64,000 nucleotides of DNA, taken from Syntrophorhabdaceae bacterium (GTDB lineage: Bacteria; Desulfobacterota; Syntrophorhabdia; Syntrophorhabdales; Syntrophorhabdaceae). The stretch spans positions 10,993 through 74,992 of the forward strand of contig JAGOOA010000004.1 in NCBI GenBank assembly GCA_017992765.1, written 5' to 3'. The notes beneath the pieces were generated by a model. It saw nothing but the letters and a program-made list of their open reading frames with translations, was not told the DNA's origin and made no database searches. Shown here one piece after another: positions 7,119 through 29,200 of the stretch (position 1 is the first letter of the stretch; each line of letters begins with the position of its first letter). A program made the translations under genes and the position numbers.

Positions 7119-7169
7119 CGAAAGGAAATATACGGCTTAACGGCAAAGAAAGAACAGGAGGAAAATACA

Positions 7170-7322
7170 ATGATCTTTATGCTTGGTTTTGCCGTGGGGC
7201 GGCTGCTCCACTTGAAAAGAACATGCCCAAAATGCAAGAGGCACCAGGTAGTCACCCAGGAAAATAAACATAAGACAGTAAAGTGCAAATACTGCAAAGC
7301 CGACATCCCTCCTAAAAAATAA
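7170..7322 (+). CDS. Small zinc-ribbon protein (50 residues)
   Basis: A short open frame, ATG at 7170 to TAA at 7320-7322, with a strong ribosome site AACAGGAGGA 7 nt upstream. The product has two knuckles, CPKC near residues 19-22 and CKYC near 39-42, spaced as in a treble-clef or zinc-ribbon finger, with a short hydrophobic N-terminus and a lysine-rich tail. The good ribosome site, the ordered cysteine pairs and a terminator-like hairpin at 7350-7373 support a real gene. It probably belongs to the antiporter transcript. Function unknown. Confidence 0.65.
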   Translation: MIFMLGFAVGRLLHLKRTCPKCKRHQVVTQENKHKTVKCKYCKADIPPKK

Positions 7323-7349
7323 GCTGAACCATCATCCATGACAAAAGTG

Positions 7350-11646: not shown

Positions 11647-12222
11647 TCAGCGCAGCCCGTCTTCCCCTTTTGCCTCTTCCTTCCTCAGTCCCCCTACCCT
11701 CGGGTTCGGCCTTCCGCCGTCGGTCACCGCGACTGCGAGAAGGATCTCATCCGCCTTCGGCGCGTCGCCTACCGATACGGTCATGCCGTCAAAATGAGAG
11801 CGCACAAAGGCTGCGTCCTTGAAATGAAGGGGTATATCGACGGAATCCCCCATCCTGCCAATCTTCTTTACCGACGGGATGATCGCCTTGCCTCCTCCCA
11901 CGGCGCTGCGAAGCGGCGTGCCGAGCTTGGGGTGCAAGAGCGCCGCCGCATGTTCAAGCTCGCCCCGCTCGCCAACGATGGCTGCTTTCCCGTAACTGTC
12001 GACCTTGCTGCCCTTCCCCAAAGCCTCCACCGCGCGCTCGGAGATCACCTTGCCTATCTCTTCGCTGTAATCTATCAGCGGGTTCAGGTCTTCCTGGTAT
12101 GTACCGGCATAAGGATTCTTTATGACAGCGATCGCGGCGACCTTCCTTACGGCCTTAGCGGCCTTTTTTTCTCCCTCTATGAACACATCCTCGATAATCG
12201 TTACGATCTTCCTAACCTCCAT
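11647..12222 (-). CDS. DUF1185 (AA_synth) family protein
   Basis: A 191-residue protein resembling the DUF1185 family, called 'amino acid synthesis' in databases, whose reaction is unknown. Recognisable parts are the N-terminal VRKIVTIIEDVFIEGEK, the glycine-rich VGERGELEHAAALLHPKLG and GGGKAIIPSVKKIG, and a C-terminal DGGRPNPRVGGL. No signal peptide is seen, so it is cytoplasmic. The ATG has TGGAGGTG upstream. It overlaps the UPF0280 stop by 11 nt and is the last gene of the putative nicotinate operon. Its position suggests a role in that pathway, but the sequence does not show which. Confidence 0.8.
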   Translation of the reverse strand: MEVRKIVTIIEDVFIEGEKKAAKAVRKVAAIAVIKNPYAGTYQEDLNPLIDYSEEIGKVISERAVEALGKGSKVDSYGKAAIVGERGELEHAAALLHPKLGTPLRSAVGGGKAIIPSVKKIGRMGDSVDIPLHFKDAAFVRSHFDGMTVSVGDAPKADEILLAVAVTDGGRPNPRVGGLRKEEAKGEDGLR

Positions 12223-13039
12223 TGTGCACCTCCAGCCTTATATATTCATCACCAGCTATCGTGGTGACCATTCTCTCCTTTAATAAGAACACAGCATCGT
12301 ATATGACATGATCTTTCTTTAAACGGTACGCCTCCGTCAATCCTCTGTCGAGCGCCTGTTCTGTCTCTTCATGGCTGAGATCAGCGATGCTGACGGTAAC
12401 AAGCTCGTCGGGGATATCGGTGGACGGATCGACCTCCGATGCCTTTTTTCGCTGAACCCTGTCTGTAACCACATTCGTCCTGTTGCAGAGAAATGTAGCG
12501 GCGGCATCGGCTACCGCACCGCTTTCGGCAACGACGGTAACGATGTCTGCCAGTCCGAGTGTGAGGCTGCGTCCGCCAAAACCGCTTGTTGCGATCCCAA
12601 AATCATCAAGGCCGTTGATCTTTAATACGTACGGCGTCGTTCGGCCCGTTCTTATATCTCCTATGCCGATCGTTATCTCGCGCCCTTTTCTATTGTGGAC
12701 GGCAATATCGCCGCCGTTATTGACGGTAATAAAGTCTGTCTCTTCATCCCTGATAAGATCTCTTACCATCTCCGACACGGTTCCTGCAACTGCGGCCATC
12801 GGGGTTAACGTTTTTTCATCAACCCTTTTCACTGCATTTATCATCTTCACGGCTACTTCCGGCATATGTTCGGCCCTCAGGACCCTCTGTGCCTTTTGCC
12901 GCAATACAGGAAGGCAATCCCGTATGTCCCCCAGTATTGCCGCGAGATAGTCCTCGACCTTTTTCCTGCCGATGTCGTATGCCTTGCCTCCTCTTTCAAC
13001 GGTAATAACAAGGCTTGCAGGGCCAACCTCTATAAACAT
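12212..13039 (-). CDS. UPF0280 family protein (ApbE-like fold)
   Basis: A 275-residue protein of the UPF0280 family, which is structurally related to the ApbE flavin transferases. Characteristic segments are TPMAAVAGTVSEMV (about residues 80-93), VNNGGDIAV and IATSGFGGRSLTLGLADIVTVVAESGAVADAAATFL, split here only for description. The biochemical role is unknown. The start has no clear ribosome site, and short-word repeats occupy the gap upstream. It lies between the 6-hydroxynicotinate reductase-like gene and the DUF1185 gene and overlaps the latter. An assisting role, for example in cofactor handling for the reductase, is inference. Confidence 0.83.
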   Translation of the reverse strand: MFIEVGPASLVITVERGGKAYDIGRKKVEDYLAAILGDIRDCLPVLRQKAQRVLRAEHMPEVAVKMINAVKRVDEKTLTPMAAVAGTVSEMVRDLIRDEETDFITVNNGGDIAVHNRKGREITIGIGDIRTGRTTPYVLKINGLDDFGIATSGFGGRSLTLGLADIVTVVAESGAVADAAATFLCNRTNVVTDRVQRKKASEVDPSTDIPDELVTVSIADLSHEETEQALDRGLTEAYRLKKDHVIYDAVFLLKERMVTTIAGDEYIRLEVHNGG

Positions 13040-13192
13040 AATGGCTCACAACTCATCGTTGACAGCTCATAGTAAAAGAATCAGGTTGAGGCTAAGGTTG
13101 AGGGTAACCAAGGTTTGCTTAGCCTTAACCTTAACCTTAGCCTAAACCTTAGCCTGTTTTTTTTGCTGACGGCTGATCGCTGATCGCTGATT
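13040..13192. repeat. Short-word intergenic repeats with a 17-bp inverted repeat
   Basis: Three kinds of simple word repeat lie together. First, TGACAGCTCATAG-type words occur at 13041-13072. Second, CCTTAACCTTAGCC-type words occur at 13083-13155. Their outer arms, 13083-13099 and 13133-13149, pair with 16 of 17 bases and are followed by eight Ts (13157-13164) on the plus strand. Third, four heptamers of the form GCTGAYS occur at 13165-13192. The third block lies inside the 3' end of the reductase gene and encodes its C-terminal tail. Confidence 0.75.
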
Positions 13193-14690
13193 TCAGCGCT
13201 TCTTCCACAGGCCTTATTGCCTCCATATGTCCCCCTATCCCCTTAAAGGTATCGAGCCTCATCGTGTATTCGACGGGCAGAACGAACGAGGGCGTCGGGG
13301 TAAGATATATGCTCCCGTACTTTATCCTTGCCACATCGACGAGGAAATTGATCCCGCCGCCGGGAAAGATAAAGGGCCTCGCTCCGCCGATGGTGACCAT
13401 CACCTTTTCCTCGTGCACCGCCCTTGTCATTTTGATCGGGTTCTTAGTAACGCCGGCCCGCGCGGATCCTCCCACGCCGGCGGCAAAGATGGCGCTCACC
13501 CGCGACTGCTCGCAGGAATCCCTTAAAACGTCTATGAACTTCACCGCTTCAGGGGTGGGTTTTTCCTTTTTCAATTGACCGTCCCTCATCCTGTAAAAAG
13601 AATATCTTTGTCCCGTCGTCTCAGTGATGAGCAGCGTCATGCCGTCGGGACACCTTTTTGCGTCGATGTCCTGAATGGCATCGAGCGGATCTTCTATCGT
13701 GGTCCCTCCCCACCCTGATCCCTTTTCGAGAAAGTAGCGTCCGTCAGTGCTCTTCTGTCCTTTTATCATGATCCCGGATCTTGCCTTGTTGAGATATCTT
13801 CCTGAGGGGTGCTCGCTGAAAAGGCCGGTAATATGTCCATCAAGGACGACCACCTCGTCTGCGGCATTGAACATGTAGGGTGCGAAAAGGCCCGTTGTGG
13901 CGCTTCCGCAGCCAACCCGCATCCTTTCCACTGAGACGCCGTTCACCTTTGGTGCGTTGCCGAGGGCAAGTTCCACGATGGAGCCATCATCGATCTCGAG
14001 CCGAACCTCTTTTCCCTGGAGAAGGTCAAAGATCGTCCTGGCGGCGAAAAGCCCGTCCTTTGATGTCAGGATGTTCACTCCGCCAAGCGACATGATCTTT
14101 GAGCCGTATTCTTCTGTGCAGAGATGCCCGATATGCCTTTTGCCTTTCCTGCGTACAAATATCTTCCTGCCCTCTTCCCCGAGGTGCATGTCTGTATCAA
14201 CCTTTAATTTTATCCCGCTGTAGCTGAGAGGCGCCTCTGTGACAACGGTTACGATATCCACGCCATCCCTGATGCCGCTCACGATGAACGGGGACGGCCT
14301 GAAGTCGGGATAGGTTGTTCCCGAGCCGATACCGGTCAGCAAAGGCCTTTCGATGAGCGGGTCTTCGCCAGCGCCGATGATGTCAGCGATCTCGTCGTAG
14401 GTGTGCACCCTTCCCTTTCTGAGGATATCGCCTTTTTGATTGTAGTACCGCATGCACGCGCCGTATGAGCCCTCGGGGATCCGGCACATGATGGGGCATG
14501 CCTTGCATACAGGTACGTCGTCTTTCGCCTCGATGCTGAAAACGTCTTTCGGGCATACCTTCATGCATGTCCCGCATTCTACGCAGCCGTCGCCGATCTC
14601 GACCTTTTTCTTTTTAATGGTCGCAACGCCAAGCGGACACACCTCTTCGCAGAGCCCGCACCCTATGCATTTATCAACGTCGACCTTCAT
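13149..14690 (-). CDS. hnr: 6-hydroxynicotinate reductase-like iron-sulfur enzyme
   Basis: A 513-residue protein. The N-terminus is a two-cluster ferredoxin, C8-C18 and C36-C46, each CX2CX2CX3C. A third cysteine set follows at C62, C65, C69 and C79. The remainder is a long unassigned domain with glycine-rich VGCGSATTGLFAPYMFNAADE and FPGGGINFLVDVARIKYG. The arrangement matches the 6-hydroxynicotinate reductase annotated from the Eubacterium barkeri nicotinate pathway, which reduces 6-hydroxynicotinate to 1,4,5,6-tetrahydro-6-oxonicotinate with reduced ferredoxin. The adjacent enamidase, the next enzyme of that pathway, strongly supports this. The last dozen residues (SAISDQPSAKKTG) are encoded by an intergenic word repeat and are probably a late addition. 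Confidence 0.78.
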   Translation of the reverse strand: MKVDVDKCIGCGLCEEVCPLGVATIKKKKVEIGDGCVECGTCMKVCPKDVFSIEAKDDVPVCKACPIMCRIPEGSYGACMRYYNQKGDILRKGRVHTYDEIADIIGAGEDPLIERPLLTGIGSGTTYPDFRPSPFIVSGIRDGVDIVTVVTEAPLSYSGIKLKVDTDMHLGEEGRKIFVRRKGKRHIGHLCTEEYGSKIMSLGGVNILTSKDGLFAARTIFDLLQGKEVRLEIDDGSIVELALGNAPKVNGVSVERMRVGCGSATTGLFAPYMFNAADEVVVLDGHITGLFSEHPSGRYLNKARSGIMIKGQKSTDGRYFLEKGSGWGGTTIEDPLDAIQDIDAKRCPDGMTLLITETTGQRYSFYRMRDGQLKKEKPTPEAVKFIDVLRDSCEQSRVSAIFAAGVGGSARAGVTKNPIKMTRAVHEEKVMVTIGGARPFIFPGGGINFLVDVARIKYGSIYLTPTPSFVLPVEYTMRLDTFKGIGGHMEAIRPVEEALKSAISDQPSAKKTG

Positions 14691-14807: not shown

Positions 14808-15959
14808 TCAGCTAATAGCTGCTTTACGGTTTGGTGGAGGCGTGTTCCTGCTCACCTGCGCCTTCACGACCCCATCAATGAGGACCATTGCTATCCCCGG
14901 GATGTCCCCGCACTCTATCGCCGCCTTTGCGTCCTGTCCTGCCGATCCCATGGGCGCGTCGATGATCTGCAGGTCCGCATCGTCGTCTGCCTGTATTATC
15001 CCGTGTGAAAGCCCGTAGGTCTTTTTCGTGTTGCCTGTTGCCAGGCAGACCGCAACCTCCGCCGGAACGCCGCAGAGCGCCGATACATAGTTCACCATCC
15101 TCCAGATGCCGAGCGGTATTACCCCCGTTCCGGAAGGCGCATCGTTGCCGATAATAAGCCTCCCAAGGAGATTGTTGTTCTTCATGAACCGTCCGATCTC
15201 AAATGCCGTGAGGGGGTTCCCGCAATGGACGATCTCTATCGTGCATTCGGTCTTCTCGATCACCCTTATCGCCTCTGGGATGGGGATGCTCGTCGGCCCG
15301 CCGTTCAGATGGCAGGCTACCGTCGGCTGCGCTATCATGACGTCATCGCAGGTCACCGTGGAGCTTCCCGGCACCGACGTGCCCCCGACGTGCATAAGGA
15401 CCTTCATACCGTATTTCTTCGCCCATTTCACCATCTCCTTTGCCTCATTGGCGGCCTTGACGCTCCCCAGTCCTATCTCGCCCACCAGCCATACGCCGTC
15501 CTCTGCAAGCTCTTTAAAATCAGCTTCCACAAGCCCTTTCTCGAGGATCAGCGCCCCGCCGTAAACCTTGACCCCTGCCGGCCTCAGCTTCGCGAACGAT
15601 CTCTGCGCAAGCAGCGCGAGGGCCTTCGTGCCTTTCGGGTCCGTGGGCCTGCCCGGCAGATGGACCTCTCCCGCGGATATCATGCTCGTCACCCCGCCAT
15701 GGAGACTGCTGTCGATAAAGTTCAACTGGTTCTGCCTTGGCGTGAAATCGCCGAAGACAGGGTGGGAGTGGGAATCGATGAAACCGGGGCAAACGGTCAT
15801 GCCCTTTGCGTCGATCGACCTTTCTGCATCCAGGCCGTCTTTCCCGATCGCTTTGATCTTCCCGTTCTCGATGAGTATCGAGACCGGGCCGTCGAGCACG
15901 GGATTTTGAATATCGCCCGTCATTACCATCCCTATATTCTTAATCGTTAACGAACCCAT
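14808..15959 (-). CDS. ena: Enamidase (amidohydrolase superfamily), nicotinate-type
   Basis: A 383-residue cytoplasmic amidohydrolase. Metal-ligand motifs are visible in order: HSHP near residues 63-66, an expected bridging glutamate in WLVGEIGLG, LMHVGG, the histidine of ACHLNGG, and the aspartate of IIGNDAPSGTG. Overall it resembles the binuclear enamidase of E. barkeri. That enzyme opens 1,4,5,6-tetrahydro-6-oxonicotinate to 2-formylglutarate with release of ammonium. The ATG is preceded by AAGGAGGCG. It is flanked by the 6-hydroxynicotinate reductase-like gene and the molybdenum hydroxylase, which is the expected pathway company. A different cyclic amide is the main alternative substrate. 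Confidence 0.8.
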   Translation of the reverse strand: MGSLTIKNIGMVMTGDIQNPVLDGPVSILIENGKIKAIGKDGLDAERSIDAKGMTVCPGFIDSHSHPVFGDFTPRQNQLNFIDSSLHGGVTSMISAGEVHLPGRPTDPKGTKALALLAQRSFAKLRPAGVKVYGGALILEKGLVEADFKELAEDGVWLVGEIGLGSVKAANEAKEMVKWAKKYGMKVLMHVGGTSVPGSSTVTCDDVMIAQPTVACHLNGGPTSIPIPEAIRVIEKTECTIEIVHCGNPLTAFEIGRFMKNNNLLGRLIIGNDAPSGTGVIPLGIWRMVNYVSALCGVPAEVAVCLATGNTKKTYGLSHGIIQADDDADLQIIDAPMGSAGQDAKAAIECGDIPGIAMVLIDGVVKAQVSRNTPPPNRKAAIS

Positions 15960-16097: not shown

Positions 16098-18245
16098 TCA
16101 CCCTTTCGCCTTTTCCAGCAGCATCTTCAGCCTCTCTATATGACAGGGCAGCTCGAACGGCCTTACGCCCGTTGCGTCCTTTATCGCGTTCACAATGCTT
16201 GCCGCCTGAGGGATCAGGGCCGGTTCGCCGACTCCTTTTGCTCCGAAGGGGCCCGTCGGTTCCCGGTCCTCGACGACAAATACCTCCACATCGGGCATAT
16301 CCATCGATGTGGGCATATAGTAGTTGTCGAAGGATCCGCTCTTTCCCGGCACAAATTCTTCCATGAGGGCAAAACCCACGCCCATCGCTATCCCTCCGTA
16401 GATCTGCCCCCTTACGTTCTTGAGATTGATAGCCCTGCCCACATCGTGGGCCGCATAGACCCTTTTAACCGTACAGTACCCTGTCTCCGGTTCCACCTCT
16501 ACTTCCGTCATGTGCGCTGCGAAGGCGTATGTTGCATAGGGTGAGCCTTTCGACGTTTCAGGATCAACGGGCGTCGTCGGCGGGTCAAAAAATCCATTAT
16601 GTTCGAGGAGCTTTTTGTCTGTCTCTGACGCGTAGATCTCCCTGATGGGCCTGCCTTTATAAAATCCTTTTTCATCGAGGTATTGCCTCATCTTCAGCGC
16701 CGCGTCAAACACGGCGCCTCCGGAGATATATGTCTGCCGGCTTGCAGAGGATGACCCCGCGTCCTTCGATGTGTCCGTATCGCCCCTCACCAGGATAATA
16801 TCCTCTATCTCCAAGCCAAGCGCCTCCTGAAGGATCTGGACGAGTGTTGTGTCGGAGCCCTGCCCTATCTCACAGGCGCCCGTGTGGAGCGCGATCTTCC
16901 CGTCCCCGGTAATATTAAGGCACGCGTTGGCGGGATTCGATACGCCGGTGTTGCCGATCCCGTAATACATGCATCCGAGGCCAAAGCCTGTATGGTCGTC
17001 CTTCTTTGTGCGTTTTCTCCAGTACGGCTCAACCTTTTTTAAGGTCTCGATGATCCCCACGCTGTTTTGCAACATCTGCGATGTAGCGGTCAACGATCCC
17101 TTTTTGAGGGCGTTCATCATCCGTATGTCGAAGGGGTCCATTTTGAGCATCGAGGCAACCTCATCCATCTGGGATTCGTGGGCAAAGGCAAGCTGGGGGA
17201 TCCCGAAGCCTCTCATGGCGCCGGAGACAGGGTTGTTCGTGTAGAACATCCTGCTGTCGACGTGAACGTTCGGGATATCGTAAGGTCCTGTTGCATGGAG
17301 GGCGGCTCTCAGGCATACGGTCTCGCCATACGATGCGAACGGCCCCGTGTCGCCGATAATGTTTACCTTTACGGCAGTTATGGCGCCGTCTTTCCTGGCG
17401 CCCGTTTTATATTCAATATAGAGGGGGTGCCTCTTCGTATTTGAAAGAAAGCTTTCTTCCCTCGTATACCTCATAACAACAGGCCGTTTTGTATGGTGTA
17501 CCGACAAGGCGATAAAACCTTCGACGGTAATATCAAGCTTGCCCCCGAACCCGCCGCCCGTTGTCGCCTGGACCACCTTTATCTTCTCTTCCGGTACCGC
17601 AAGCAGCCGGGATATCTCTTTCTGCTTATAATGGATATTCTGTGTTGATGAGATAACAACTATCCTGCCTTTACCGTCAGGATAGCCTACGCCTGACTCC
17701 GTCTCCATGAAGGCGTGGTCGAGCCACGTCGTTGAATAGGTATGTTCTACTATAACGTCAGCCTCTTTAAAACCTCTCTCTATATCGCCTTTTATGACCT
17801 TTCTGCGGCTTAAAAGGTTCCCTTTATCGTGGATGAGAACTCTTGAACTCTCCGGCATAAAAGGTCCTGACACTACTTCAGTATCCTCATATTCGACCTC
17901 GATGAGCTGCAATGCCTTTCTCGCGGCTTCTTCGGTTTCACCGAGGATAATCAGTACCGGTTCCCCGATATACCGCACCCTCTCCTGTGCAAGATACGGC
18001 TGGTCTTTTTTGATGATCCCGAAAAGATTTTCTCCGGGTATATCATGGCAGGAGAGGACCTTGACGATGCCGGGAGACGCCATGGCAGCCCTTGTATCGA
18101 TCCTCCTGATAAACGCATGGGGCCTTGTACTCCTGAAGATACAGCCGAAAAGCGCCCCTTTTGCGCTCAGGTCTTCAGCATAAACAGGCCTGCCCAACAC
18201 TTTATCCAGTGCGTCGATCCTGTTGATCTCATTGCCGATGTACAT
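16098..18245 (-). CDS. Molybdenum hydroxylase large subunit (candidate nicotinate dehydrogenase)
   Basis: A 715-residue xanthine dehydrogenase-family large subunit. The N-terminal a/b-hammerhead (about 15-120) is followed by molybdopterin-binding regions with TTGGGFGGK (about 228-236), AMRGFGIPQ, and the active-site glutamate motif GAKGVGEPALIP (about 670-681). The FAD and 2Fe-2S subunits are encoded just upstream, giving an L-M-S hydroxylase that inserts water-derived oxygen into a heteroaromatic ring. With an enamidase and a 6-hydroxynicotinate reductase next door, the likely reaction is nicotinate to 6-hydroxynicotinate. E. barkeri splits this subunit in two; here it is one chain. Substrate assignment is from context, not from active-site residues. 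Confidence 0.85.
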   Translation of the reverse strand: MYIGNEINRIDALDKVLGRPVYAEDLSAKGALFGCIFRSTRPHAFIRRIDTRAAMASPGIVKVLSCHDIPGENLFGIIKKDQPYLAQERVRYIGEPVLIILGETEEAARKALQLIEVEYEDTEVVSGPFMPESSRVLIHDKGNLLSRRKVIKGDIERGFKEADVIVEHTYSTTWLDHAFMETESGVGYPDGKGRIVVISSTQNIHYKQKEISRLLAVPEEKIKVVQATTGGGFGGKLDITVEGFIALSVHHTKRPVVMRYTREESFLSNTKRHPLYIEYKTGARKDGAITAVKVNIIGDTGPFASYGETVCLRAALHATGPYDIPNVHVDSRMFYTNNPVSGAMRGFGIPQLAFAHESQMDEVASMLKMDPFDIRMMNALKKGSLTATSQMLQNSVGIIETLKKVEPYWRKRTKKDDHTGFGLGCMYYGIGNTGVSNPANACLNITGDGKIALHTGACEIGQGSDTTLVQILQEALGLEIEDIILVRGDTDTSKDAGSSSASRQTYISGGAVFDAALKMRQYLDEKGFYKGRPIREIYASETDKKLLEHNGFFDPPTTPVDPETSKGSPYATYAFAAHMTEVEVEPETGYCTVKRVYAAHDVGRAINLKNVRGQIYGGIAMGVGFALMEEFVPGKSGSFDNYYMPTSMDMPDVEVFVVEDREPTGPFGAKGVGEPALIPQAASIVNAIKDATGVRPFELPCHIERLKMLLEKAKG

Positions 18246-18252
18246 TTTTCAC

Positions 18253-19089
18253 TTAACCCCGCAGCGCTTTTTGAACAAGGCCTTTCACAACGGGCAGCTT
18301 ATATGCAAAAGACGGCCTGTCACCCGTGATCCTTCGTATCTCTTCTACGACAAGTGCAGCCGCCTCGCCTATCGTGTGATCGTCCTTTTTCCTGCCGCTC
18401 AAAAACCCCTCAACGTTCCTTGGTCGAAAAGGCATCGGCGTGCAGGAGCCTATCGCCAGCTTAACGTCAACGAAGCGGTCCCCATCTTCGCGGACCGCCC
18501 ACGCAACCGACAGCCGGGAGATCGCCCAGGCAGCGCGCTTCGCTATCCTCCTGTACCCTTCCCTGTATCCGGGCAGGCCTTTGATGCACACCCGGGTCAG
18601 CAGTTCGTGGTGCTTCAGAGAGGTTTTGTAAGGCGCAACGATAAAATCGTCGAGCCTTTCCTCCCGTTTTCCTTCTTGCGATTCGATCTTAAGCACGGTA
18701 TCGTGGATGAGTAGGGGCGGGATCGAATCAGCGGCAGGAGATGCATTGACAAGGTTGCCGCCAATGGTTCCCATGGTGCGTATCTGTGGCGAACCTATCC
18801 ACCCGCATGCCGCAGAGAGGCTCCTCGCCAGATCGTTGAGCATGGCTGCCGCGCTGATCGCAGAGTGCGTGATCGCCGGGCCGATCGCGATATCCGTGCC
18901 ATCGCCGGACAGGCGCCTGAGCTCTTCAATGTTCATGATATCGACAACGTTGCCGCACAGCTCCCCCCTCTTCATATTCACGAGAAGGTCTGTGCCCCCG
19001 GCGATCACCCGCGCATCATCAAGCAATGCCAGGTAAGCGAGGGCATCCTCTTTCGTCTTAGGGCTTACACTTGCAAAGTCCGGCAGCAT
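18253..19089 (-). CDS. Molybdenum hydroxylase FAD-binding subunit
   Basis: A 278-residue subunit of the CoxM/NdhF type. The FAD pyrophosphate motif is IAGGTDLLVNMK (about residues 34-45), and the second FAD motif is TMGTIGGNLVNASPAADS (about 106-123). A CO dehydrogenase flavoprotein C-terminal domain (about 170-275) closes the chain. It passes electrons from the iron-sulfur subunit to an acceptor such as NAD(P)+. It overlaps the 2Fe-2S gene by 32 nt and is 7 nt before the large-subunit gene, which indicates translational coupling. It lacks the extra loop that binds a [4Fe-4S] cluster in 4-hydroxybenzoyl-CoA reductase, judging from its short length. Confidence 0.88.
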   Translation of the reverse strand: MLPDFASVSPKTKEDALAYLALLDDARVIAGGTDLLVNMKRGELCGNVVDIMNIEELRRLSGDGTDIAIGPAITHSAISAAAMLNDLARSLSAACGWIGSPQIRTMGTIGGNLVNASPAADSIPPLLIHDTVLKIESQEGKREERLDDFIVAPYKTSLKHHELLTRVCIKGLPGYREGYRRIAKRAAWAISRLSVAWAVREDGDRFVDVKLAIGSCTPMPFRPRNVEGFLSGRKKDDHTIGEAAALVVEEIRRITGDRPSFAYKLPVVKGLVQKALRG

Positions 19090-19531
19090 CTCGAATCGCC
19101 TCTACAATCTGGATATAGCCAGTGCACCTGCACAGGTTGCCGCTTATTGCTTCCCTTATCTCACTGTCGCTTGGATCTTCATTCTTTATGAGCAGGCTGT
19201 ATGCAGACAGGAGCATCCCGGGGGTGCAGTAGCCGCATTGTACAGCGCCTGCTTCGATAAAGGCCTTCTGCAGCGGGTGGAGAAGGTCTGCGTCACCAAG
19301 GTATTCAACGGTCTTGACATCGTGCCCGTCCACCTTTGATGCCAGCGTCAGGCAGGAATAATGGGGCTCGTTGTCGATCAGCACCGTGCAGGTCCCGCAT
19401 TCGCCTATGCCGCACCCCTCCTTGACGCTCTTTATCGAGAACCGCTCTCGCAAGGTATGGAGCAAAAGCTCTCTATCCTGTACCTCACAGAAAACTTTCC
19501 TGCCATTCAATACGAAGCTAACGTTCTTCAT
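19058..19531 (-). CDS. Molybdenum hydroxylase 2Fe-2S subunit
   Basis: A 157-residue small subunit with two [2Fe-2S] clusters. The plant-ferredoxin-type cluster uses GCGIGECGTCTV and a later cysteine in SCLTLA. The helical second domain uses QCGYCTPGM and NLCRCTGY. All eight expected cysteines are present. It carries electrons from the molybdenum centre to FAD. It starts 29 nt after the TRAP permease gene ends and overlaps the FAD subunit gene, so transport and hydroxylation are encoded on one transcript. Confidence 0.92.
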   Translation of the reverse strand: MKNVSFVLNGRKVFCEVQDRELLLHTLRERFSIKSVKEGCGIGECGTCTVLIDNEPHYSCLTLASKVDGHDVKTVEYLGDADLLHPLQKAFIEAGAVQCGYCTPGMLLSAYSLLIKNEDPSDSEIREAISGNLCRCTGYIQIVEAIRDAAGLCKCKP

Positions 19532-19560: not shown

Positions 19561-20871
19561 CTACCTTCCCATAAGGCCCGGGAGATAAAGCACGATTTGA
19601 GGGAAGATCACGAGGATCACCGCCACAATGATAATTGAGATCAAAAAAGGCATAGCTCCTTTGAAGATATCTGCCATGGGTACGTCCTTCGCTATCCCTG
19701 CAAGGGTGTATACATTAAGGCCTACCGGCGGAGTGATGAGCCCCGCCTCCATCATAAGTACGGCCAAGACTCCAAACCATATGGGATCGAAGTGGAGGGC
19801 CACGATAACGGGAAATATGACGGGCAGCGTAAGCACCATCATCGATACCGCGTCAAGAAAGCATCCGAGCAGAAAATAGATCGCTATAATTATTGCCAGG
19901 ACGACATACCGTGATACTTCAAGGCCGGCAATCCACCCCGATACAACGGCGGGTATCGTTGAGAGGGCGAGGAAGTAGCTGAAAACGGTCGCCCCTGCAA
20001 CAAGAAAAAGCACCATAATAGAGATCCTCGCCATTTCAAGAAGCGAGGCGAAAAGGCCCTGCCAGCTCAGCTTTTTCTTCACGAGAACAATAACAAGGAG
20101 CGCCGTGGCCCCTATGGCCCCTGCCTCCGTAGGATTAATGTATCCAAGGTATATTCCACCCATGACAATAAAAAAGACAAGAAGCGTCTCCCATATTCCC
20201 TTCAGGGCCTTGATCTTTTCCTTCAGAGAGACGTCGCCCTCTGTCGCAGGGGCAAGAGCTGGATTTATCTTTACCTGGCCGACGACAACAACGATGTACG
20301 CAAATGCAAGCAGCAGGCCCGGCATGATACCTGAGATCAGGAGTTTTCCGATGGACTGCTCTGTCAGCATCCCGTACACCACAAAACCAAGGCTTGGCGG
20401 GATAAGAAAGGCGAGCGTCCCCCCCGCTGCCACCACCCCTGTTGCCAGCTTGGGGTGGTAATTAAATCTTTTCATCTCGGGGAGGGCAATATTGCCCATC
20501 GCCGCGGCTCCAGCAACGGAAGAGCCGCTCACCGCGGCAAATCCAGCGCAGGCAGCGATAGTAGCCACCCCCAAGCCCCCGGGGAGCCTCCTGAACCACT
20601 TGTCAAATGTCTCGTAAAGCTCTCTCGTGATGCCTGCGCTGCCGGCAAAGCCGCCCATAAGGATGAAAAGGGGGATGATAGTGTAGGGGTAGTTCGCCGC
20701 AACCTCGTATATCGTCTTCGCAACAACCGGGAGCGCCGCTCCAAGCGAGGTGAGCGTCCATATGCCGATAAAGCCGACAAACATCATGAGAAACGCGATG
20801 GGCATTCCGAGCAAGAGAAGGGCCACTACAAGCGCGCTACCAAGGATTCCCGCTACGATGGGATCTATCAT
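19561..20871 (-). CDS. dctM: TRAP transporter large permease (DctM)
   Basis: A 436-residue, very hydrophobic protein with about 12 membrane segments and family motifs such as GMPIAFLMMFVG, SSVAGAAAMGNIALPEM and the C-terminal LITPPVGLNVYTLAG. DctM forms the sodium-driven transport channel of TRAP systems in the inner membrane. The start codon at 20871 has TAGGAG upstream and lies 4 nt after the DctQ stop. It is encoded in the middle of the putative nicotinate operon, so it is the likely substrate importer. Confidence 0.93.
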   Translation of the reverse strand: MIDPIVAGILGSALVVALLLLGMPIAFLMMFVGFIGIWTLTSLGAALPVVAKTIYEVAANYPYTIIPLFILMGGFAGSAGITRELYETFDKWFRRLPGGLGVATIAACAGFAAVSGSSVAGAAAMGNIALPEMKRFNYHPKLATGVVAAGGTLAFLIPPSLGFVVYGMLTEQSIGKLLISGIMPGLLLAFAYIVVVVGQVKINPALAPATEGDVSLKEKIKALKGIWETLLVFFIVMGGIYLGYINPTEAGAIGATALLVIVLVKKKLSWQGLFASLLEMARISIMVLFLVAGATVFSYFLALSTIPAVVSGWIAGLEVSRYVVLAIIIAIYFLLGCFLDAVSMMVLTLPVIFPVIVALHFDPIWFGVLAVLMMEAGLITPPVGLNVYTLAGIAKDVPMADIFKGAMPFLISIIIVAVILVIFPQIVLYLPGLMGR

Positions 20872-20875
20872 GCTC

Positions 20876-21364
20876 CTATTGTCTCCTCATCCCTGCTATC
20901 GTATTAAATAGATCGACGAGAAATTCCAGCCATAAAAGTAAACCGCCGACTGCCACGAGGAGCCTGAAGGGCCACTGGGGAACTCTCAGCATGTCCGATA
21001 CGGTCTTCTCATGTATCCCCTCTGTAAAACCCTGCCAAACCATGATGCTGATTATTACCATGCACAAAAGGGTCGTTACGATCTCTACGACGCCCCTGGT
21101 CTTTTGAGGGAATTTCCTGGTCAGGAAATCGACGCCCACGTGGCCTTTAACCTGCTGGGTGTATGCAGCGCCGAGCAGAACAATGATGCTTAGCATATAT
21201 TCGGAGAGCTCAAGGGTGCCGGGGATCGGCTTATTGAAGAAGCCCCTGCTGATAACATCGCCCGTCGTGATGAGCATGAGCGGGATAGCAAGGAACATCC
21301 CCACAGCGCAGGTAAAGTAGGTAATGCGCCTGATCACCCTTTGAAAGCCCTCTATTTGCCTCAT
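20876..21364 (-). CDS. dctQ: TRAP transporter small permease (DctQ)
   Basis: A 162-residue membrane protein with four hydrophobic segments and the usual DctQ features. These include the ARG-like DVISRGFFNKPIPGTLELSEY region after the first helix pair and QVKGHVGVDFL in the middle. It pairs with DctM in the inner membrane. It lies 15 nt after the binding-protein gene and 4 nt before dctM. Confidence 0.92.
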   Translation of the reverse strand: MRQIEGFQRVIRRITYFTCAVGMFLAIPLMLITTGDVISRGFFNKPIPGTLELSEYMLSIIVLLGAAYTQQVKGHVGVDFLTRKFPQKTRGVVEIVTTLLCMVIISIMVWQGFTEGIHEKTVSDMLRVPQWPFRLLVAVGGLLLWLEFLVDLFNTIAGMRRQ

Positions 21365-21379: not shown

Positions 21380-22462
21380 TCAGGCCTTCTTAAACTCAGG
21401 CGGACATGCTACCAGTTTAACGTTTCTTTTCTCGCACTCTTCATTCATGATCGCAACGGTTTTCCGTGCAGGAAGCCCCTTTGCTTCAAGATCCTTCACC
21501 CAGGCCCTTGTCACATCCTGGAATTTTGCGTACCACTGTTCTGCTTCTGCCTTGGGAAGGTCAATGAACTTAACGCCTTTGTCGGCGATCTCTTTCATGA
21601 TCACCTTGTAAGCAGCCTGATTGAGGCCGCCCGTTACTTTGAAGGGGTTTGTGCACACCTGATCAACAAGTTTTTTCTGGTCCTGGGGAAGCTTGTTCCA
21701 GGAGTTCATATTCATTATCGTTCCTTCGGATACGCATCCGAAGGTAAGGATCGTAGCATGCTTTGCCACTTCATACAGCTTAAAGCCCTGGATCAGAGGA
21801 GGGCATGTCACGATACCGTCGACAGTGCCTGTTTCCATGGCCATGTACACATCGCCGAGGGGCATAAAGACAGGTTCTGCGCCCAGCGCCTTTATATAGT
21901 TCGTCTGGTGGCCGCCCGGAGATCTTAATTTCATGCCTTTAAGGTCCGCCAGCCTGGAGATGGGCTTTTTCGACCATATGAACGACTGGATGCAGCCATT
22001 GAGCTCGAGGACCTTCACATTCTTAAATTCTTCTTTCAGCGCCCTGCCGTACACCGCATTGCCTATGTCCGCAGCCACATCTTTACCGTCAACCCATACG
22101 GCAAGGGAAAGCACATCGGTCAGCGGGAAACGTCCCGGAGTCCACGTAGCGGTAAAATAGCCCATATCTGACATGCCTTTGGCAACGATGTCAAAATGCT
22201 CCGGGCCTTTTCCGAGGGCAGCCCCGGCGTACATCGTATAGCCCATCTTGCCGGCGCTCCTTTTCTTCAGTTCCTCGAGCATCGGGATCCATACGGTCTT
22301 CACCTCTTTGCCTACAGGCGGGTGCCACGTGCTGAACTTGATATTTGTATTCTGTGCAAGAAGCATATTCGGATCAAACATCCCCATACCCACGGCAGCC
22401 CCACCGATAAGAGCGCCTTTCAAGAAATTCCTCCTGCTTAAATCCTTACATTCCTGACACAT
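21380..22462 (-). CDS. dctP: TRAP transporter solute-binding protein (DctP), Tat-type signal
   Basis: A 360-residue periplasmic binding protein. The N-terminus has a twin-arginine motif SRRNFLKGA (about residues 9-17) followed by a hydrophobic run, so export may use the Tat route. The family core has LKGMKLRSPGG with the carboxylate-binding arginine, and LGDVYMAMETGTVDG. These proteins usually bind organic acid anions, which fits nicotinate or another heterocyclic carboxylate. The ATG follows AAGGAGGAG. A promoter candidate lies at 22498-22526. Confidence 0.92.
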   Translation of the reverse strand: MCQECKDLSRRNFLKGALIGGAAVGMGMFDPNMLLAQNTNIKFSTWHPPVGKEVKTVWIPMLEELKKRSAGKMGYTMYAGAALGKGPEHFDIVAKGMSDMGYFTATWTPGRFPLTDVLSLAVWVDGKDVAADIGNAVYGRALKEEFKNVKVLELNGCIQSFIWSKKPISRLADLKGMKLRSPGGHQTNYIKALGAEPVFMPLGDVYMAMETGTVDGIVTCPPLIQGFKLYEVAKHATILTFGCVSEGTIMNMNSWNKLPQDQKKLVDQVCTNPFKVTGGLNQAAYKVIMKEIADKGVKFIDLPKAEAEQWYAKFQDVTRAWVKDLEAKGLPARKTVAIMNEECEKRNVKLVACPPEFKKA

Positions 22463-22573: not shown

Positions 22574-24058
22574 CTATACCCACCTCAGCGTCACCGTCTT
22601 TTGATCTAAAAATAGCCTTACAGAGTCCGCCCTCGATTTTGCTCCCCCAAAAAAAGACCCTTTTTTCGACCCCAATGGGAAGAAGGCATAAGGCTGGGGG
22701 ATCCCGGCGTTCACTCCTATATTGCCTACTTCACATTCCCTTATAAACTTGCGGGCGGTTTTGCCGCTTTCTGTGATTATGCAGGCTGAATGGCCATAAT
22801 CCGATCCATTTATCAACCCTATAACCTCATCAAGGTCTTTCGCCCTTATCAAATTTGCCACAGGTCCAAAAGACTCCTCTTTTGCTATCCCCATGGAATG
22901 TGAAACGTTTTCAAATATCGTCGGGCCGATGAAATACCCCTTTTCGCAACCTTTCACTTTTACGCCTCTCCCATCGAGAGCAAGCCTTGCCTTTTCTTTT
23001 AGGCCCTTCTCGATGAACATCTCGATCCTTTCTTTTCCTTCCACGGTCGTAAGGGGGCCCATCTCCGCCGATTCATCAAGGCCGTAACCAAGCCTCATCC
23101 TTTGTGAGGCATCAATGAATTTTGCCTTTAATTCGTTATATTTGCCCCCTACAACGACGACATTGTCGGAACCAAGGCATCTTTGCCCTGTCATGCCGAA
23201 ACAGCCCCTTAAAAGGTACTGTACGGCATTGTCGATATTCGCATCGGGCATAACAACGATATGGTTCTTCCCGTTGCCGTTGATCGACGATCTTTTGCCT
23301 AAGCTTCCGCATAGTTCAAACAACTGCTTTCCCACCCCGGATGAACCGATAAATCCAACTCCGCTGACCTTGGGGTTGGCGATCATCCTCGTGTTGAGCT
23401 CTACCTTTTTTCCAACGTGAATAAGATTAACAACGCCCGGGGGAAGCCCGGCCTCCGCAGTTACTTTGAAAATAGCGTCAGCAGCCGCCGGACACTGCCA
23501 GCTCGGGCTGACAACGACCGTGCAGCCGCACGCAAGTGCGTATGGCACGAAAGAAGACCATGCGTGCATCGGTATGTTCCCCGGCGTGAGGATAAGAAAT
23601 ACCCCTACCGGCTCCCACAGCATATAACAATCGATGCCCGTTGCAAGCTGCTCGACGTGCTCGCCTTTATATGCGCCGTACATCGAGCTTACGGCCGATT
23701 CAACGTTCTCAATGCACCGCTGTATCGTTCCGTGCGCGTCATCGATCGTCCTTCCGTGGTCCTGGACAAGGACGCGGGAAAGCATCTCGTGGTGTTCCGC
23801 AAACTTCGCCCTTAGCTTTGAGATGTAGTTGGCCCTGTCCCTGAACGGCGTCTCTTTCCATTTTTTGAACGCTTCAAACGCTGCGTCAACCGCATCGTCC
23901 GCTTCCTTCTCGGTTGCCACAGGGACCTTTGCGATCGCCTCGCCTTTCGCAGGGTTGGTATTTTCAAACATTGTCCCTGATTTTGAATCGATCCACTTCC
24001 CGTTGATATAAAATTTTAATTTCCCGTAATGTCTTTTTATCTCCGGTAATAATGCCAT
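22574..24058 (-). CDS. MmsA-like CoA-acylating (semi)aldehyde dehydrogenase
   Basis: A 494-residue aldehyde dehydrogenase. The ATG at 24058 is chosen because AAGGAGG precedes it; the frame stays open to 24196 but would overlap the regulator gene. The Rossmann part has LTPGNIPMHAWSSF and GSSGVGKQLF. The nucleophile lies in MTGQRCLG (about residue 292) and is preceded by arginine, as in methylmalonate-semialdehyde dehydrogenase. The glutamate of hydrolytic aldehyde dehydrogenases (ELGGK) is replaced here by NGNGKNH, which matches the CoA-dependent MmsA group. That group oxidises 2-substituted 3-oxo-acids with CO2 loss. 2-Formylglutarate, the enamidase product, has this structure and would give glutaryl-CoA. 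The substrate is inferred. Confidence 0.85.
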   Translation of the reverse strand: MALLPEIKRHYGKLKFYINGKWIDSKSGTMFENTNPAKGEAIAKVPVATEKEADDAVDAAFEAFKKWKETPFRDRANYISKLRAKFAEHHEMLSRVLVQDHGRTIDDAHGTIQRCIENVESAVSSMYGAYKGEHVEQLATGIDCYMLWEPVGVFLILTPGNIPMHAWSSFVPYALACGCTVVVSPSWQCPAAADAIFKVTAEAGLPPGVVNLIHVGKKVELNTRMIANPKVSGVGFIGSSGVGKQLFELCGSLGKRSSINGNGKNHIVVMPDANIDNAVQYLLRGCFGMTGQRCLGSDNVVVVGGKYNELKAKFIDASQRMRLGYGLDESAEMGPLTTVEGKERIEMFIEKGLKEKARLALDGRGVKVKGCEKGYFIGPTIFENVSHSMGIAKEESFGPVANLIRAKDLDEVIGLINGSDYGHSACIITESGKTARKFIRECEVGNIGVNAGIPQPYAFFPLGSKKGSFFGGAKSRADSVRLFLDQKTVTLRWV

Positions 24059-24132: not shown

Positions 24133-24678
24133 TTAGAACGTCGGCGGCGTTATCACCCACAGTATGATCGCGTTCTCTTTCCCTTTGTTCCCCCAATCAT
24201 GCGGCAGCTTCGAAGAGAAATAAAAGCTCTCGTTCTCCCGTACCGTGTAGATCTTGTCGTTCAGCATCAGCTCGAGCTCGCCTTTTATGACAAAGCCGAA
24301 CTCTTCGCCTTCATGGGAATACATGCCATGAGACCCTCCGCCAGGCCTGATGACCGTATAGAAGGGCTGCATCTTTTTGTTCTTCGTTGTCCTGACAAGG
24401 GATTGTATCCTCGCGTCCCACCTCTGGAGCTGTATATCGATCCTTTCTTTTTTTCCCGTGACTATATCCTCATCCTTTACGCTTTCCATGAAAAAATCAA
24501 CAATATTGACATTCAGCGCTTCCGCTATCTTTTTCAACATCGATATAGAAGGGTCCGTCTTGTCCCTTTCAAGTTGGGATATCAATGAAGAAGTGCATTC
24601 GACAAGGCCTGCAAGCTGCTTCAAGGTAAGGCCTTTGCCTTCCCTCAGTTCACGTATTTTTTTTCCTATGTTGACCAT
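24133..24678 (-). CDS. XRE-family regulator with C-terminal cupin domain
   Basis: A 181-residue protein. The helix-turn-helix (residues 5-62) reads IGKKIRELREGKGLTLKQLA and LISQLERDKTDPSISMLKKI. The cupin barrel (about 105-178) has HEGEEFGFVIKGELEL and a closing LPHDWGNKGKEN. Proteins of this class often control catabolic operons and sense a small molecule through the cupin. It is the first gene of the block, 74 nt upstream of the aldehyde dehydrogenase gene. A palindrome touches its start codon, so it is probably autoregulated and controls the operon. Confidence 0.88.
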   Translation of the reverse strand: MVNIGKKIRELREGKGLTLKQLAGLVECTSSLISQLERDKTDPSISMLKKIAEALNVNIVDFFMESVKDEDIVTGKKERIDIQLQRWDARIQSLVRTTKNKKMQPFYTVIRPGGGSHGMYSHEGEEFGFVIKGELELMLNDKIYTVRENESFYFSSKLPHDWGNKGKENAIILWVITPPTF

Positions 24679-24954: not shown

Positions 24955-26232
24955 ATGGGCAGCGTAGATGTCTTAGAAAGCAAGCGGCCTGTTCTCGGCA
25001 TCAACAGTCTTGGCAGGATAGGGAAGCTATCGTTGTGGCATCATGTCGGCAGAAAATACTTTCAGGAAATTATCGTAAATATCGGCAGGGACTCCGGCAC
25101 GGGCTTGAGCTCTATTGCACAGTTCATAGAAAAGGATGTGACCTACGGAACGATCCACAAATTTTTATACGGAATAAAATCCGGTCGCATCATACAGATA
25201 GTCGACGAAAAGAAGGGCAAACTTCTCATAGACGGCATTCCTGTTACGATCTTGCGGGAGGCGAGAAACCCTGTAGATATCGGATGGCGTAATTACGGTG
25301 TTGACCTGGTGGTTGAGTGCACCGGAAAATTCAGAGACCCTACCCTTGCCCCTGAAGACCCGAAGGGTTCCATAAAAGGGCACCTCGCAAGCGGAGCAAA
25401 GGTCGTCATCAACTCTTCCGCTTTCAAGATCAAAAATAAATCGCTATCCTCACCGTCCGATACCGTTACCCTCATCTACGGCATAAACCACACCGCCTTC
25501 AACTACAAGAAGCACCTCATCGTATCTGCTGCGTCCTGCACGACAACGGGCCTCGCCCATATGGTAAAACCGCTTCTCGAAAATGCTGAGACCAGCAAGA
25601 TACTTACCGCCTCCATGTCGACGGTACACGCGGTTACAAACACGCAAAGCGTTCTTGATAATTTGCCCAAGGCAGGAGAAAAGGACCTGCGCAAAAACAG
25701 GAGCATCTTTAATAATATTATCCTGACCTCCACAAATGCTGCGGAGGCGTTGAGCCAGGTTATCCCTGAGGTCAAAAGCATCGGATTTATGGCAGATTCC
25801 ATAAGAATCCCCATCAATACCGAATCGCTCATCGTTCTTAACGTCACCTTCCAGTCGCAGTTTCACGAAGACGGGACAAGAACCTCCGTAACCACAAAGA
25901 CAATGAACGATATCTACAAAAAAGCCTCCGAGAAGGACCTTGAGCACCTTCTCATTTACTCTACCGAACAGAACGTATCGACGGACCTTATCGGCACAAA
26001 CGCCGCGATCGTGATCGAGGGCCAGTTCAACCATACTCGCACGGCCTTTATAGATGTCGACATTTCGCAGATTCCGAATATACCCGCCGGGATAAAAACA
26101 GGCGCTCCCAAAAACATCCTGAGGATACCGGTAGTACACGCAAAGGTCTTCGGATGGTACGATAACGAATACGGCAGCTACACCAACAGGATGGGAGACC
26201 TGACAGTGTATGTGCACAAGTCGCTGCGGTAG
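24955..26232 (+). CDS. Divergent long glyceraldehyde-3-phosphate dehydrogenase-like protein
   Basis: A 425-residue protein, about 90 longer than ordinary GAPDH. The NAD-binding loop is GINSLGRIGK (15-24). The catalytic cysteine is C195 in SAASCTTTGLAHM, where standard enzymes have SCTTN. The partner histidine is H225 in STVHAVTNTQ, and the C-terminal WYDNEYGSYTNRM is close to the canonical WYDNE motif. The catalytic pair is therefore intact, but the cofactor loop and the residues after the cysteine differ. Extra length lies mainly between the Rossmann strands and after residue 280. It could be a glycolytic or gluconeogenic enzyme or act on another phosphorylated or unphosphorylated aldehyde. 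The ATG has CGGAGG upstream. Confidence 0.82.
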   Translation: MGSVDVLESKRPVLGINSLGRIGKLSLWHHVGRKYFQEIIVNIGRDSGTGLSSIAQFIEKDVTYGTIHKFLYGIKSGRIIQIVDEKKGKLLIDGIPVTILREARNPVDIGWRNYGVDLVVECTGKFRDPTLAPEDPKGSIKGHLASGAKVVINSSAFKIKNKSLSSPSDTVTLIYGINHTAFNYKKHLIVSAASCTTTGLAHMVKPLLENAETSKILTASMSTVHAVTNTQSVLDNLPKAGEKDLRKNRSIFNNIILTSTNAAEALSQVIPEVKSIGFMADSIRIPINTESLIVLNVTFQSQFHEDGTRTSVTTKTMNDIYKKASEKDLEHLLIYSTEQNVSTDLIGTNAAIVIEGQFNHTRTAFIDVDISQIPNIPAGIKTGAPKNILRIPVVHAKVFGWYDNEYGSYTNRMGDLTVYVHKSLR

Positions 26233-26249: not shown

Positions 26250-29200
26250 CTATATTCCTATCTGGTACGATGCTTCAGCATCGCTTTCATGGCGGCCGTA
26301 ATACACGGCGCCGCTCCATCCATCGATGCAAATGAAGTCACCGCCGATTATCTTTTTATTGTACACAGTGCAAAAGCCTTCGGACTCATGAACTTTTAGC
26401 TTTCCGAACCCGACAACGCCGACCTTTCGCAGCTGAGGGATAGTCACCGCTGCGTGGGAGGTCCCTCCCCCTCTTGCGGTGAGAAGTCCTTCTACCTGGA
26501 GAAGGATGCCGACATCATCCGGAACGGTGTCGGGCCTTATCAATATAAGCGGGGTATCTGGTTCCTCTGAGCGAAAACGACGAATTTCATCCTCGGAAAA
26601 TACGGCCCTTCCGCAGAGGGCGCCTCCGCTTACCCCTATCCCTGAGCCGAGAAAAGAGCTGAGAAGCTCTTGGGTCTCTTTAAAAAGCTTTCTTTTTTTT
26701 GTTTCCCTTTGGATCATATCCCGCGTCTGCAGGATATAAAGTCCCTTTTTTGTCGCGTTCTCAAAAGTGAATTCTATCTCCTGGTGGTTGAACCCCTTTT
26801 CGTATATCAGCACCTCAACGAGCCGTATCAGCTCATGGTAAATATCGGGAAAATTTTTCTCCAGCGATACGCTGGAATCGCTTCTCTCCGCCATTCGTTG
26901 TTTTTCTGAGATCGGAAACGTCCCTACGAGCCCCGATACGATATCGTCGCCCTGCACGCCGAAGATAAAATCTCCGTATAGGGCGATATTGGCCGATGAG
27001 CCTTTGGGGTCCCTTGTAAAGATGACCCCTGACCCCGAATTCTCATCGAGATTTCCGAACACCATCGATTGTACTATAACAGCGGTTCCCCACTCATCGG
27101 AAAGGTGCATCTGGTGCCTGTACGTCTTAGCCTGCTCAGAGTACCACGAATCGAACACCTGCAGAATGGCCTCCCGCAGCTGTTCGGCAGGATCATCGGG
27201 GATCTCCACGTTCCGCTGCCTTATCGCCTCTTTATAAGAAAGCGCGAGCCGCTTCATCTGCGCAGAGTTAAAATGTATCTTGCGCGTTACGTTGTACTGC
27301 TGTTTGAATCTATCAATGATCTCATCGAAAACATTTCTTTCCAGACCCTTGAACATCCCCCAGGTCTGCAGAAACCTTCTGTAGGAATCCCAGGCGGCCC
27401 ATCTGTAATGTCTTTTTTTTCCAAGGCCTTCCGCAATCGCTTCATTTATGCCGACGTTGAGAAAAGAGTGCATCATGCCCGGAAGGGAGATCGTGGCTCC
27501 GCTCCTCACGGACAGGAGAAGGGGGTTTTCTGGATCTCCGAATTTCCGCCCGGTCAGCCTCTCCAGTTCGACCACCTCGTCGTAAATCCTCAGGCTCAAA
27601 TCCTTAAAAATATATTTGTACGCAATAACTGCGTCATATCCCCTGAAAACCTCGGTCGTTATTATGAAGCCTGGAGGAACCGGAAAATCGAAAGACACCA
27701 GCTGTTTCAAAAAATATCCCTTGTTGCCGATCAATATCTGGTTATCCATGCTTTTATTTCTCTTGTGGATGGGCGATATTGCCAGTTCCGGTATATATGC
27801 CATGACGAGGTTGAGGATCTGTTTGTTGTCTTTGAACTTTTCAAGTTCAGCGCTTAATGTCTTGATAATGTTATTCACGAAATTATCGAGCACCTGGAGC
27901 CCGAAAGCGGACGATATCATGGAGCGTATAAAATTTTCCGAGCGCTGGTAGGTCTGCTCTTCTTCGTTTGTTATTTCTGAACTGACCGTTGCCCCCTCAC
28001 CCTTCTGAAGTATCTGTTTTATAACTATCGACAGGTTGTTCCTGTGGGCATCAATGTAATAATCGCGGATGATGTCCTGTATGCCTTTCTCAATAAATTG
28101 GAAGATATCGATATACTGATCGATAGAGAATTGCCTCACCTGCAGCGCGCTTGAAATATATTTCATCTTTGAAACGAGACCTTCCGTCGCGATCCCTTCA
28201 AGCTCAAGGGCCTTTACATAGACCCAAAGGTATTCATGGACCCTGGTAAGGGTGCTCTTTGTTATAAACTTTAGGTTCAGCGACTCAAGAAGCTTTTGGA
28301 ACAGAACGCCTGCAAAATTCTCAAGGCGGAAGGCCAGGCCCATCGCTTCGAACTTTTCTTCCCTGTAGGTTCCGTACATCGATGGAATGCCTGCTGCAAT
28401 ATGCCGCTTGTAATAGATATTTTCAAAGGGCGCGATCTCTCCCGGAGTAAGTATCTTTTCCTTCAGGGTTGAGAGCAGCTCCATCATAATAACGAGGGCA
28501 CGGTAGATATTCTTATTCTTCAGGGCATACCGCAACCCCCTGATCTTGGGCAGCTCAAACATGCAGGAAGCTTCCAGGTCCTGCAGAAGGTCAATCGGTT
28601 GATAGTTGTATTTCTTGAACAAAAGCTGGTGGAGCCTTATCATGAGCGCTGCGCGCTCTTTGTCCCTGTCCGATACGCCGCCGATCCGATTAATTTCATC
28701 CCTGATCTTCTGGATATCCCATTCGAGAAGGCCGCAGACATCGCCATTCACTTTTGGAAGAAGCTCAATGAATATCTGATGCATTCCATCGAAGTATTCT
28801 CCGCTGTTATGCACCTCTTGAAAAACTTCTTCAGGCAAATGATTCTTCACATACTCTTTGTCCCCGGAATGCCAGTACCGGAATATATCTTCAACAAAGG
28901 GCACAAGGAGGCTGTTGCTCTCCACATGCGACTGCTTCCTGAGGAAATAGACCAGCTTATCGTTCCTCATTGTAAGCTCATCCACTTTTGTCGATGTGTC
29001 CCTTAATTCTCCTTCTGCGCCGATCTCGGTGAAATAGACGGGAAATATCCTCAGGAGCTGCTTCACGAGATTGTAAGCAGGGGCTATATCTGCATGAAGC
29101 AGAAAGGAAATGTCCCGCTGCAGGAGGTCGGTATCTTTGACAAAAACTCCTTGCAGTTTCAGGTTGATAATAAACGCCGACAGGAGACGTTTTGTCCATC

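Follow-up and report, generated by a model that had tools for sequence, protein, structure and literature searches.

The 64,000-nucleotide stretch of Syntrophorhabdaceae DNA analyzed here (the window) encodes an aldehyde dehydrogenase (ALDH) within a nicotinate gene cluster (Table 1), raising the question of which reaction this enzyme carries out after the pyridine ring has been opened. Two routes beyond this point were known before: the long fermentative branch of E. barkeri and a glutarate route without an assigned enzyme in Azorhizobium. Ring opening by enamidase yields (S)-2-formylglutarate in E. barkeri (PMC9304392), and tetrahydro-oxonicotinate is degraded via glutarate in Azorhizobium (PMC3511419). 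A first-pass annotation of the window had proposed that the ALDH, acting like a methylmalonate-semialdehyde dehydrogenase (MMSDH), turns 2-formylglutarate directly into glutaryl-CoA and thereby replaces the B12-dependent branch of E. barkeri.

The premise that the cluster delivers 2-formylglutarate held up. The enamidase matched the E. barkeri enamidase over its full length (phmmer to 2VUN, E = 5.4 × 10−128; next family, 9 × 10−10), and the top PDB match of the molybdopterin subunit was chain A of E. barkeri nicotinate dehydrogenase (3HRD; 9 × 10−119), with chain B matching the C-terminal part. We assigned the 6-hydroxynicotinate reductase (Hnr) on the basis of its ferredoxin domain, its place beside the enamidase gene, and the published Bradyrhizobiaceae cluster, a conserved cluster that was itself found through homology to E. 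barkeri Hnr (PMC3511419); no curated model matched Hnr in the profile search. The closest named Hnr loci belong to an unclassified deltaproteobacterium (94% identity), Syntrophorhabdus sp. PtaB.Bin047 (73%), and Syntrophorhabdaceae SKW35 (70%). Given that the substrate assignments come from homology and that Hnr lacks a curated match, the cluster might instead act on a related pyridine carboxylate, making the aldehyde some other substituted malonate semialdehyde. The full-length enamidase match and the first-ranking match of the molybdenum subunits to nicotinate dehydrogenase make this quite unlikely.

Several neighboring genes recur with the cluster or adjoin it. The UPF0280 gene, whose product gives a weak ApbE-family match, lies beside Hnr in almost all nicotinate clusters of Desulfobacterota, Firmicutes, Proteobacteria, and one archaeon; because ApbE is a flavin transferase, UPF0280 may help to attach or insert Hnr's flavin. 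The PF06684 protein (“amino acid synthesis”; relatives 2QTP and 3BYQ) recurs in the majority of nicotinate clusters across several phyla, and many alpha- and betaproteobacterial clusters contain two diverged copies. Also beside the cluster are genes for a GAPDH-I-like protein (24955 to 26232, plus strand; 425 amino acids; 285 bits against a cut-off of 367) and a 1,402-amino-acid protein that ends in a PPDK/PEP-synthase-type ATP-binding region at its C terminus (26250 to 30458, minus strand), both of which occupy the same place in a related genome (G342).

Table 1. Genes of the nicotinate cluster, with coordinates in the window
Product	Coordinates	Strand	Basis or remarks
PF06684 (AA_synth/DUF1185) protein	11647..12222	-	Conserved in nicotinate clusters
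UPF0280 protein (ApbE-like fold, 2O34 relative)	12212..13039	-	Adjoins Hnr in nearly all clusters
6-Hydroxynicotinate reductase (Hnr), 513 aa, N-terminal 2x[4Fe-4S] ferredoxin domain	13149..14690	-	Synteny and PMC3511419
Enamidase, 1,4,5,6-tetrahydro-6-oxonicotinate to 2-formylglutarate (by homology)	14808..15959	-	phmmer to 2VUN
Nicotinate dehydrogenase molybdopterin subunit, E. barkeri L and M fused in one chain	16098..18245	-	3HRD
Nicotinate dehydrogenase FAD subunit (ndhF-like)	18253..19089	-	Profile matches
Nicotinate dehydrogenase [2Fe-2S] subunit (ndhS-like)	19058..19531	-	Profile matches
TRAP transporter large permease (dctM)	19561..20871	-	TIGR00786 above cut-off
TRAP transporter small permease	20876..21364	-	Position and conservation
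TRAP transporter substrate-binding protein (DctP, TAT signal), presumably nicotinate uptake	21380..22462	-	Conserved in clusters
Aldehyde dehydrogenase, 494 aa, putative CoA-acylating decarboxylating 2-formylglutarate dehydrogenase	22574..24058	-	N260, R114, R293, C294, R476; profile, PDB, Foldseek
PuuR-like HTH + cupin transcriptional regulator, first cluster gene	24133..24678	-	Conserved beside cluster in L041 to L044 and others

The ALDH open reading frame is intact on the minus strand. We preferred the ATG at 24058 over an upstream TTG (540-amino-acid mechanical ORF) because a Shine-Dalgarno-like AAGGAGG lies just 5′ of the ATG. In alignment with E. coli GabD, N260 in the motif SSINGNGKNH (residues 257 to 266) falls at the general-base Glu of ELGG, and R293 in GQRC (residues 291 to 294) falls at the Thr of GQTC; GabD has Y, T, and C at the positions of R114, R293, and C294, respectively. 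Two readings of the first-pass annotation were thus borne out, namely, that ELGGK is replaced by NGNGKNH with loss of the hydrolytic Glu and that an Arg precedes the catalytic Cys. A second MMSDH-typical arginine, R114, which that annotation had not mentioned, is also present.

In a tree with 77 other sequences, the window ALDH fell into a fully supported clade of 41 sequences (100/99), and ordinary MMSDHs of the same phylum fell on other branches. NGNGKN, R114, R293, C294, and N161 were invariant in 41/41 members, so that NGNGKN and the R114, R293, and C294 residues are not chance features of one sequence. The earlier view that both motifs are as in MMSDHs therefore needs dividing: the arginine of GQRC conforms, but ordinary MMSDHs carry Q or L at position 260, and for this reason NGNGKN is the signature of a separate clade and not of MMSDHs as such.

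The best PDB relatives of the window ALDH by both sequence and fold were nevertheless MMSDHs. A Foldseek search with the AlphaFold model ranked 1T90 first, and the first 34 matches were all MMSDHs; the model had a pLDDT of 75 and was weak around Cys294 and at residues 454 to 475. Against the MMSDH model TIGR01722, the window ALDH scored 403.7 bits, below the curated cut-off of 448.5 bits. Clade members scored 356 to 394 bits, two members of a second nicotinate-linked clade (see below) scored 454 and 487 bits, and ordinary relatives scored 505 to 557 bits. In B. subtilis MMSDH, two arginines bind the alpha-carboxylate, the thioacyl enzyme decarboxylates, and CoA accepts the acyl group. The window ALDH shares with MMSDHs (TIGR01722; IolA 1T90, ALDH6A1, DddC) the fold, the NAD site, the catalytic Cys, R114 and R293, and the missing general-base Glu; by expectation only, it would also oxidize, decarboxylate, and transfer the product to CoA. 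Unlike MMSDHs, its clade scores below the cut-off, stands separate, carries NGNGKN, TPGNIPMHAW, an extra R476, and usually Ser at the KPSE lysine, and is nearly always tied to nicotinate genes, and its predicted substrate has a second carboxylate. We therefore describe it as divergent and MMSDH-like, an enzyme associated with nicotinate degradation, and do not name it an MMSDH proper. MMSDH-type chemistry, as first proposed, remains a prediction, one that is well supported by computation (the fold, the pair of arginines, and the missing general-base Glu).

A score under the MMSDH cut-off, together with the fact that the majority of ALDHs are hydrolytic, would also fit a nonacylating dehydrogenase that forms glutarate or 2-carboxyglutarate without CoA. 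We consider such an enzyme very unlikely here, given Asn in place of the general-base Glu in every one of the 41 clade members and CoA-acylating MMSDHs as the nearest structures. The possibility that a different aldehyde dehydrogenase performs the step was rejected, since proA is the sole other ALDH-superfamily gene in the genome.

We then asked how tightly this clade is linked to Hnr among 395 genomes of the phylum (Desulfobacterota). The window clade was present in 37/395 genomes and Hnr in 59/395, with both present in 36 (Fisher P = 3.2 × 10−34, a value that overstates the number of independent events, as the genomes are related by descent). The ALDH and Hnr genes shared a contig in 30 of these 36 genomes, never more than 10.7 kb from each other, and were on separate contigs in the remaining six. 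The single clade genome without Hnr (G200) is 81% complete. A second MMSDH-type clade occupies the same slot in 11 further Hnr genomes. An MMSDH-type ALDH thus lies within or close to the cluster in at least 47 of the phylum's 59 Hnr-bearing genomes. Neither clade was found in about 12 of the 59, which had either short contigs around Hnr or no such ALDH in the DNA near Hnr; in one genome (G241), a 2-hydroxymethylglutarate-dehydrogenase-like gene is found at the Hnr cluster instead of the ALDH. Family resemblance alone would be compatible with an ordinary MMSDH that serves valine, inositol, or beta-alanine catabolism and sits beside the cluster by chance. This reading is extremely improbable and was rejected by the co-occurrence count, as Hnr is present in 36/37 clade genomes, mostly within 11 kb, and ordinary MMSDHs occupy other branches of the tree. 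A dedicated role of the ALDH clade in nicotinate breakdown is well supported by computation. Outside the phylum, a 4.7-kb contig (L082) from a metagenome-assembled genome labeled Candidatus Hecatellales archaeon encodes part of a window-clade ALDH (59%) next to Hnr, which may reflect either horizontal transfer into an archaeon or a misbinned bacterial contig.

The second clade was 38 to 41% identical to the window ALDH where measured. On whether MMSDHs were recruited twice independently, the trees disagreed: with GabD as the outgroup, the second clade joined the ordinary MMSDHs (97/85); in a tree without GabD, the two nicotinate clades grouped together (SH-aLRT, 92). Position 476 is Arg in 41/41 members of the window clade and 10/10 members of the second clade, in K-S-R and R-G-R loops, compared to 0/26 other MMSDH-family sequences. 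Because 2-formylglutarate exceeds methylmalonate semialdehyde by its distal carboxylate, R476 is a natural candidate for binding this extra group. The adjacent loop (residues 454 to 475) has a pLDDT below 50 in the AlphaFold model, too uncertain to place R476 or N260.

The B12-dependent 2-methyleneglutarate mutase (Mgm) of the E. barkeri branch was detected in 0/395 genomes of the phylum at a threshold of 1 × 10−60 and in 4/4 control genomes with Hnr, and the window's own genome gave only B12-binding-domain matches at 27 to 29% and no Mgm. On these grounds we rejected a B12 branch encoded elsewhere in the genome; its replacement by the ALDH, as originally suggested, is well supported by computation. 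The first three steps of the E. barkeri fermentation (Ndh, Hnr, Ena, Hgd, Mgm, Mii, Dmd), down to 2-formylglutarate, are shared with the window. In contrast to E. barkeri, the window's genome has no Mgm, its cluster lacks the Hgd-Mgm-Mii-Dmd set, its Ndh L and M subunits are fused, and an oxidative ALDH step is predicted instead of reduction to 2-hydroxymethylglutarate. Clusters in Firmicutes (e.g., L070, L071, and L081) have Hgd, Mgm, a PrpF-like isomerase, DmdA/B, and a MutL-type reactivase near Hnr and no ALDH. The deltaproteobacterium Smac51 (L085) likewise has these genes near Hnr and no ALDH, with only DmdA of the Dmd pair detected. Across these clusters, Hgd, Mgm, and Mii genes are accompanied in most cases by Dmd. 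We infer a split by lifestyle, with fermenters using the redox-balanced branch and respirers and syntrophs the oxidative one.

The Azorhizobium/Bradyrhizobiaceae route shares Hnr, UPF0280, and PF06684 with the window and likewise takes carbon to the glutarate/glutaryl level. It differs in that no such ALDH was found in the alpha- and betaproteobacterial clusters (L092 to L132) within at most about 10 kb on each side, suggesting that their step to glutarate uses something other than this ALDH type. A locus of the Archaeoglobi archaeon JdFR-42 (L086) has Hnr, UPF0280, and enamidase, with no such ALDH and no Mgm match within 10 kb.

Given the linkage to Hnr, the absence of Mgm, the MMSDH residues and fold, and R476, oxidative decarboxylation to glutaryl-CoA is the best explanation, and the ALDH is probably a dedicated CoA-acylating decarboxylating 2-formylglutarate dehydrogenase. 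Gene content, linkage, residues, family, and the missing B12 branch are observed directly; we infer the substrate, the use of CoA, the decarboxylation, the role of R476, and the later fate of glutaryl-CoA. In the proposed pathway, the TRAP system would import nicotinate, the molybdenum dehydrogenase would hydroxylate it at C6, and Hnr would then reduce the product. Enamidase would open the ring, with loss of NH3, to give (S)-2-formylglutarate, in effect a malonate semialdehyde with a CH2CH2COO− side chain. Cys294 would attack the aldehyde, passing hydride to NAD+, and the thioacyl-enzyme would lose its alpha-carboxylate, bound as in MMSDH by R114 and R293, with R476 (or the K-S-R loop) perhaps holding the distal carboxylate. 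Since N260 replaces the water-activating Glu, CoA rather than water would release the product as glutaryl-CoA.

Beta-formyl acids can decarboxylate spontaneously, and 2-formylglutarate might accordingly lose its carboxylate before the ALDH acts, whether spontaneously or through another enzyme. The ALDH would then oxidize glutarate semialdehyde to glutaryl-CoA or glutarate, a sequence resembling that of Azorhizobium, in which nicotinate carbon passes through glutarate (PMC3511419). We regard this order of events as unlikely: both alpha-carboxylate arginines are invariant in 41/41 clade members and would be needless on a substrate without that carboxylate, and the clusters share no conserved decarboxylase gene.

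Regarding the fate of the predicted glutaryl-CoA, the genome encodes nine acyl-CoA dehydrogenases. The best candidate for a glutaryl-CoA dehydrogenase (contig C48 of the window's genome, G000, positions 6189 to 7340) had the Desulfococcus enzyme as its top match (47% identity) and scored 416 bits against NF045552 (cut-off, 470). It shares with Desulfococcus multivorans GDHDes (3MPI) the catalytic Glu and the Val before this Glu, as in the nondecarboxylating type. It differs in having Gly for Arg87 (SWGLPFN versus SWRLPFN), as do other Syntrophorhabdaceae; we take Arg87 to be the substrate arginine that holds the distal carboxylate. Homologues of the candidate in three genomes (G021, G123, and G244) keep the Arg, and a true GDHDes, at 70% identity, is encoded in three others (G053, G172, and G282). 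A Na+-pump decarboxylase beta subunit and eight enoyl-CoA hydratase-family matches are present; no GcdA-type (glutaconyl-CoA decarboxylase) carboxyltransferase was found when this genome (95% complete, partly masked) was searched one family at a time, only accA/accD-like genes. Glutaconyl-CoA decarboxylase would be required if the dehydrogenase is nondecarboxylating. The suggested onward route from glutaryl-CoA to crotonyl-CoA is the weak point of the proposal and has only partial backing in this genome. The genome search proposed with it, for a glutaryl-CoA dehydrogenase or decarboxylase, recovered a candidate dehydrogenase and a decarboxylase beta subunit but neither the substrate Arg nor a GcdA-type carboxyltransferase. 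Alternatively, glutaryl-CoA could be used for its thioester, leaving as glutarate. The candidate dehydrogenase gene lies in a trio (C48:6189-8378; L248) with genes for a 71-amino-acid biotin carrier and a BcrA/D-type ATPase; the dehydrogenase and ATPase pair is also found in other Syntrophorhabdaceae, and two loci (L262 and L268) have the biotin carrier between the two genes.

In the open-access literature, outside of which most subscription papers lie, we found no published enzyme for conversion of 2-formylglutarate to glutaryl-CoA. A glutarate-level route after this ring opening is already known for Azorhizobium; what is new is an enzyme that would form the thioester in a single step. On balance, we favor the broader view that anaerobic Desulfobacterota usually degrade nicotinate reductively along a third branch, through 2-formylglutarate dehydrogenase. 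This enzyme would exist in two MMSDH-type clades with a deep split between them, each having the extra Arg for the distal carboxylate, and would allow syntrophs and sulfate reducers to oxidize nicotinate via glutaryl-CoA without B12. If so, the MMSDH family, whose current annotations cover only reactions of the valine, inositol, and beta-alanine type, would gain a new substrate. The finding would also fill a gap in anaerobic N-heterocycle breakdown, that of nicotinate past ring opening in syntrophs and sulfate reducers, with a one-enzyme, B12-free, energy-saving route (thioester plus NADH) and a clear gene marker.
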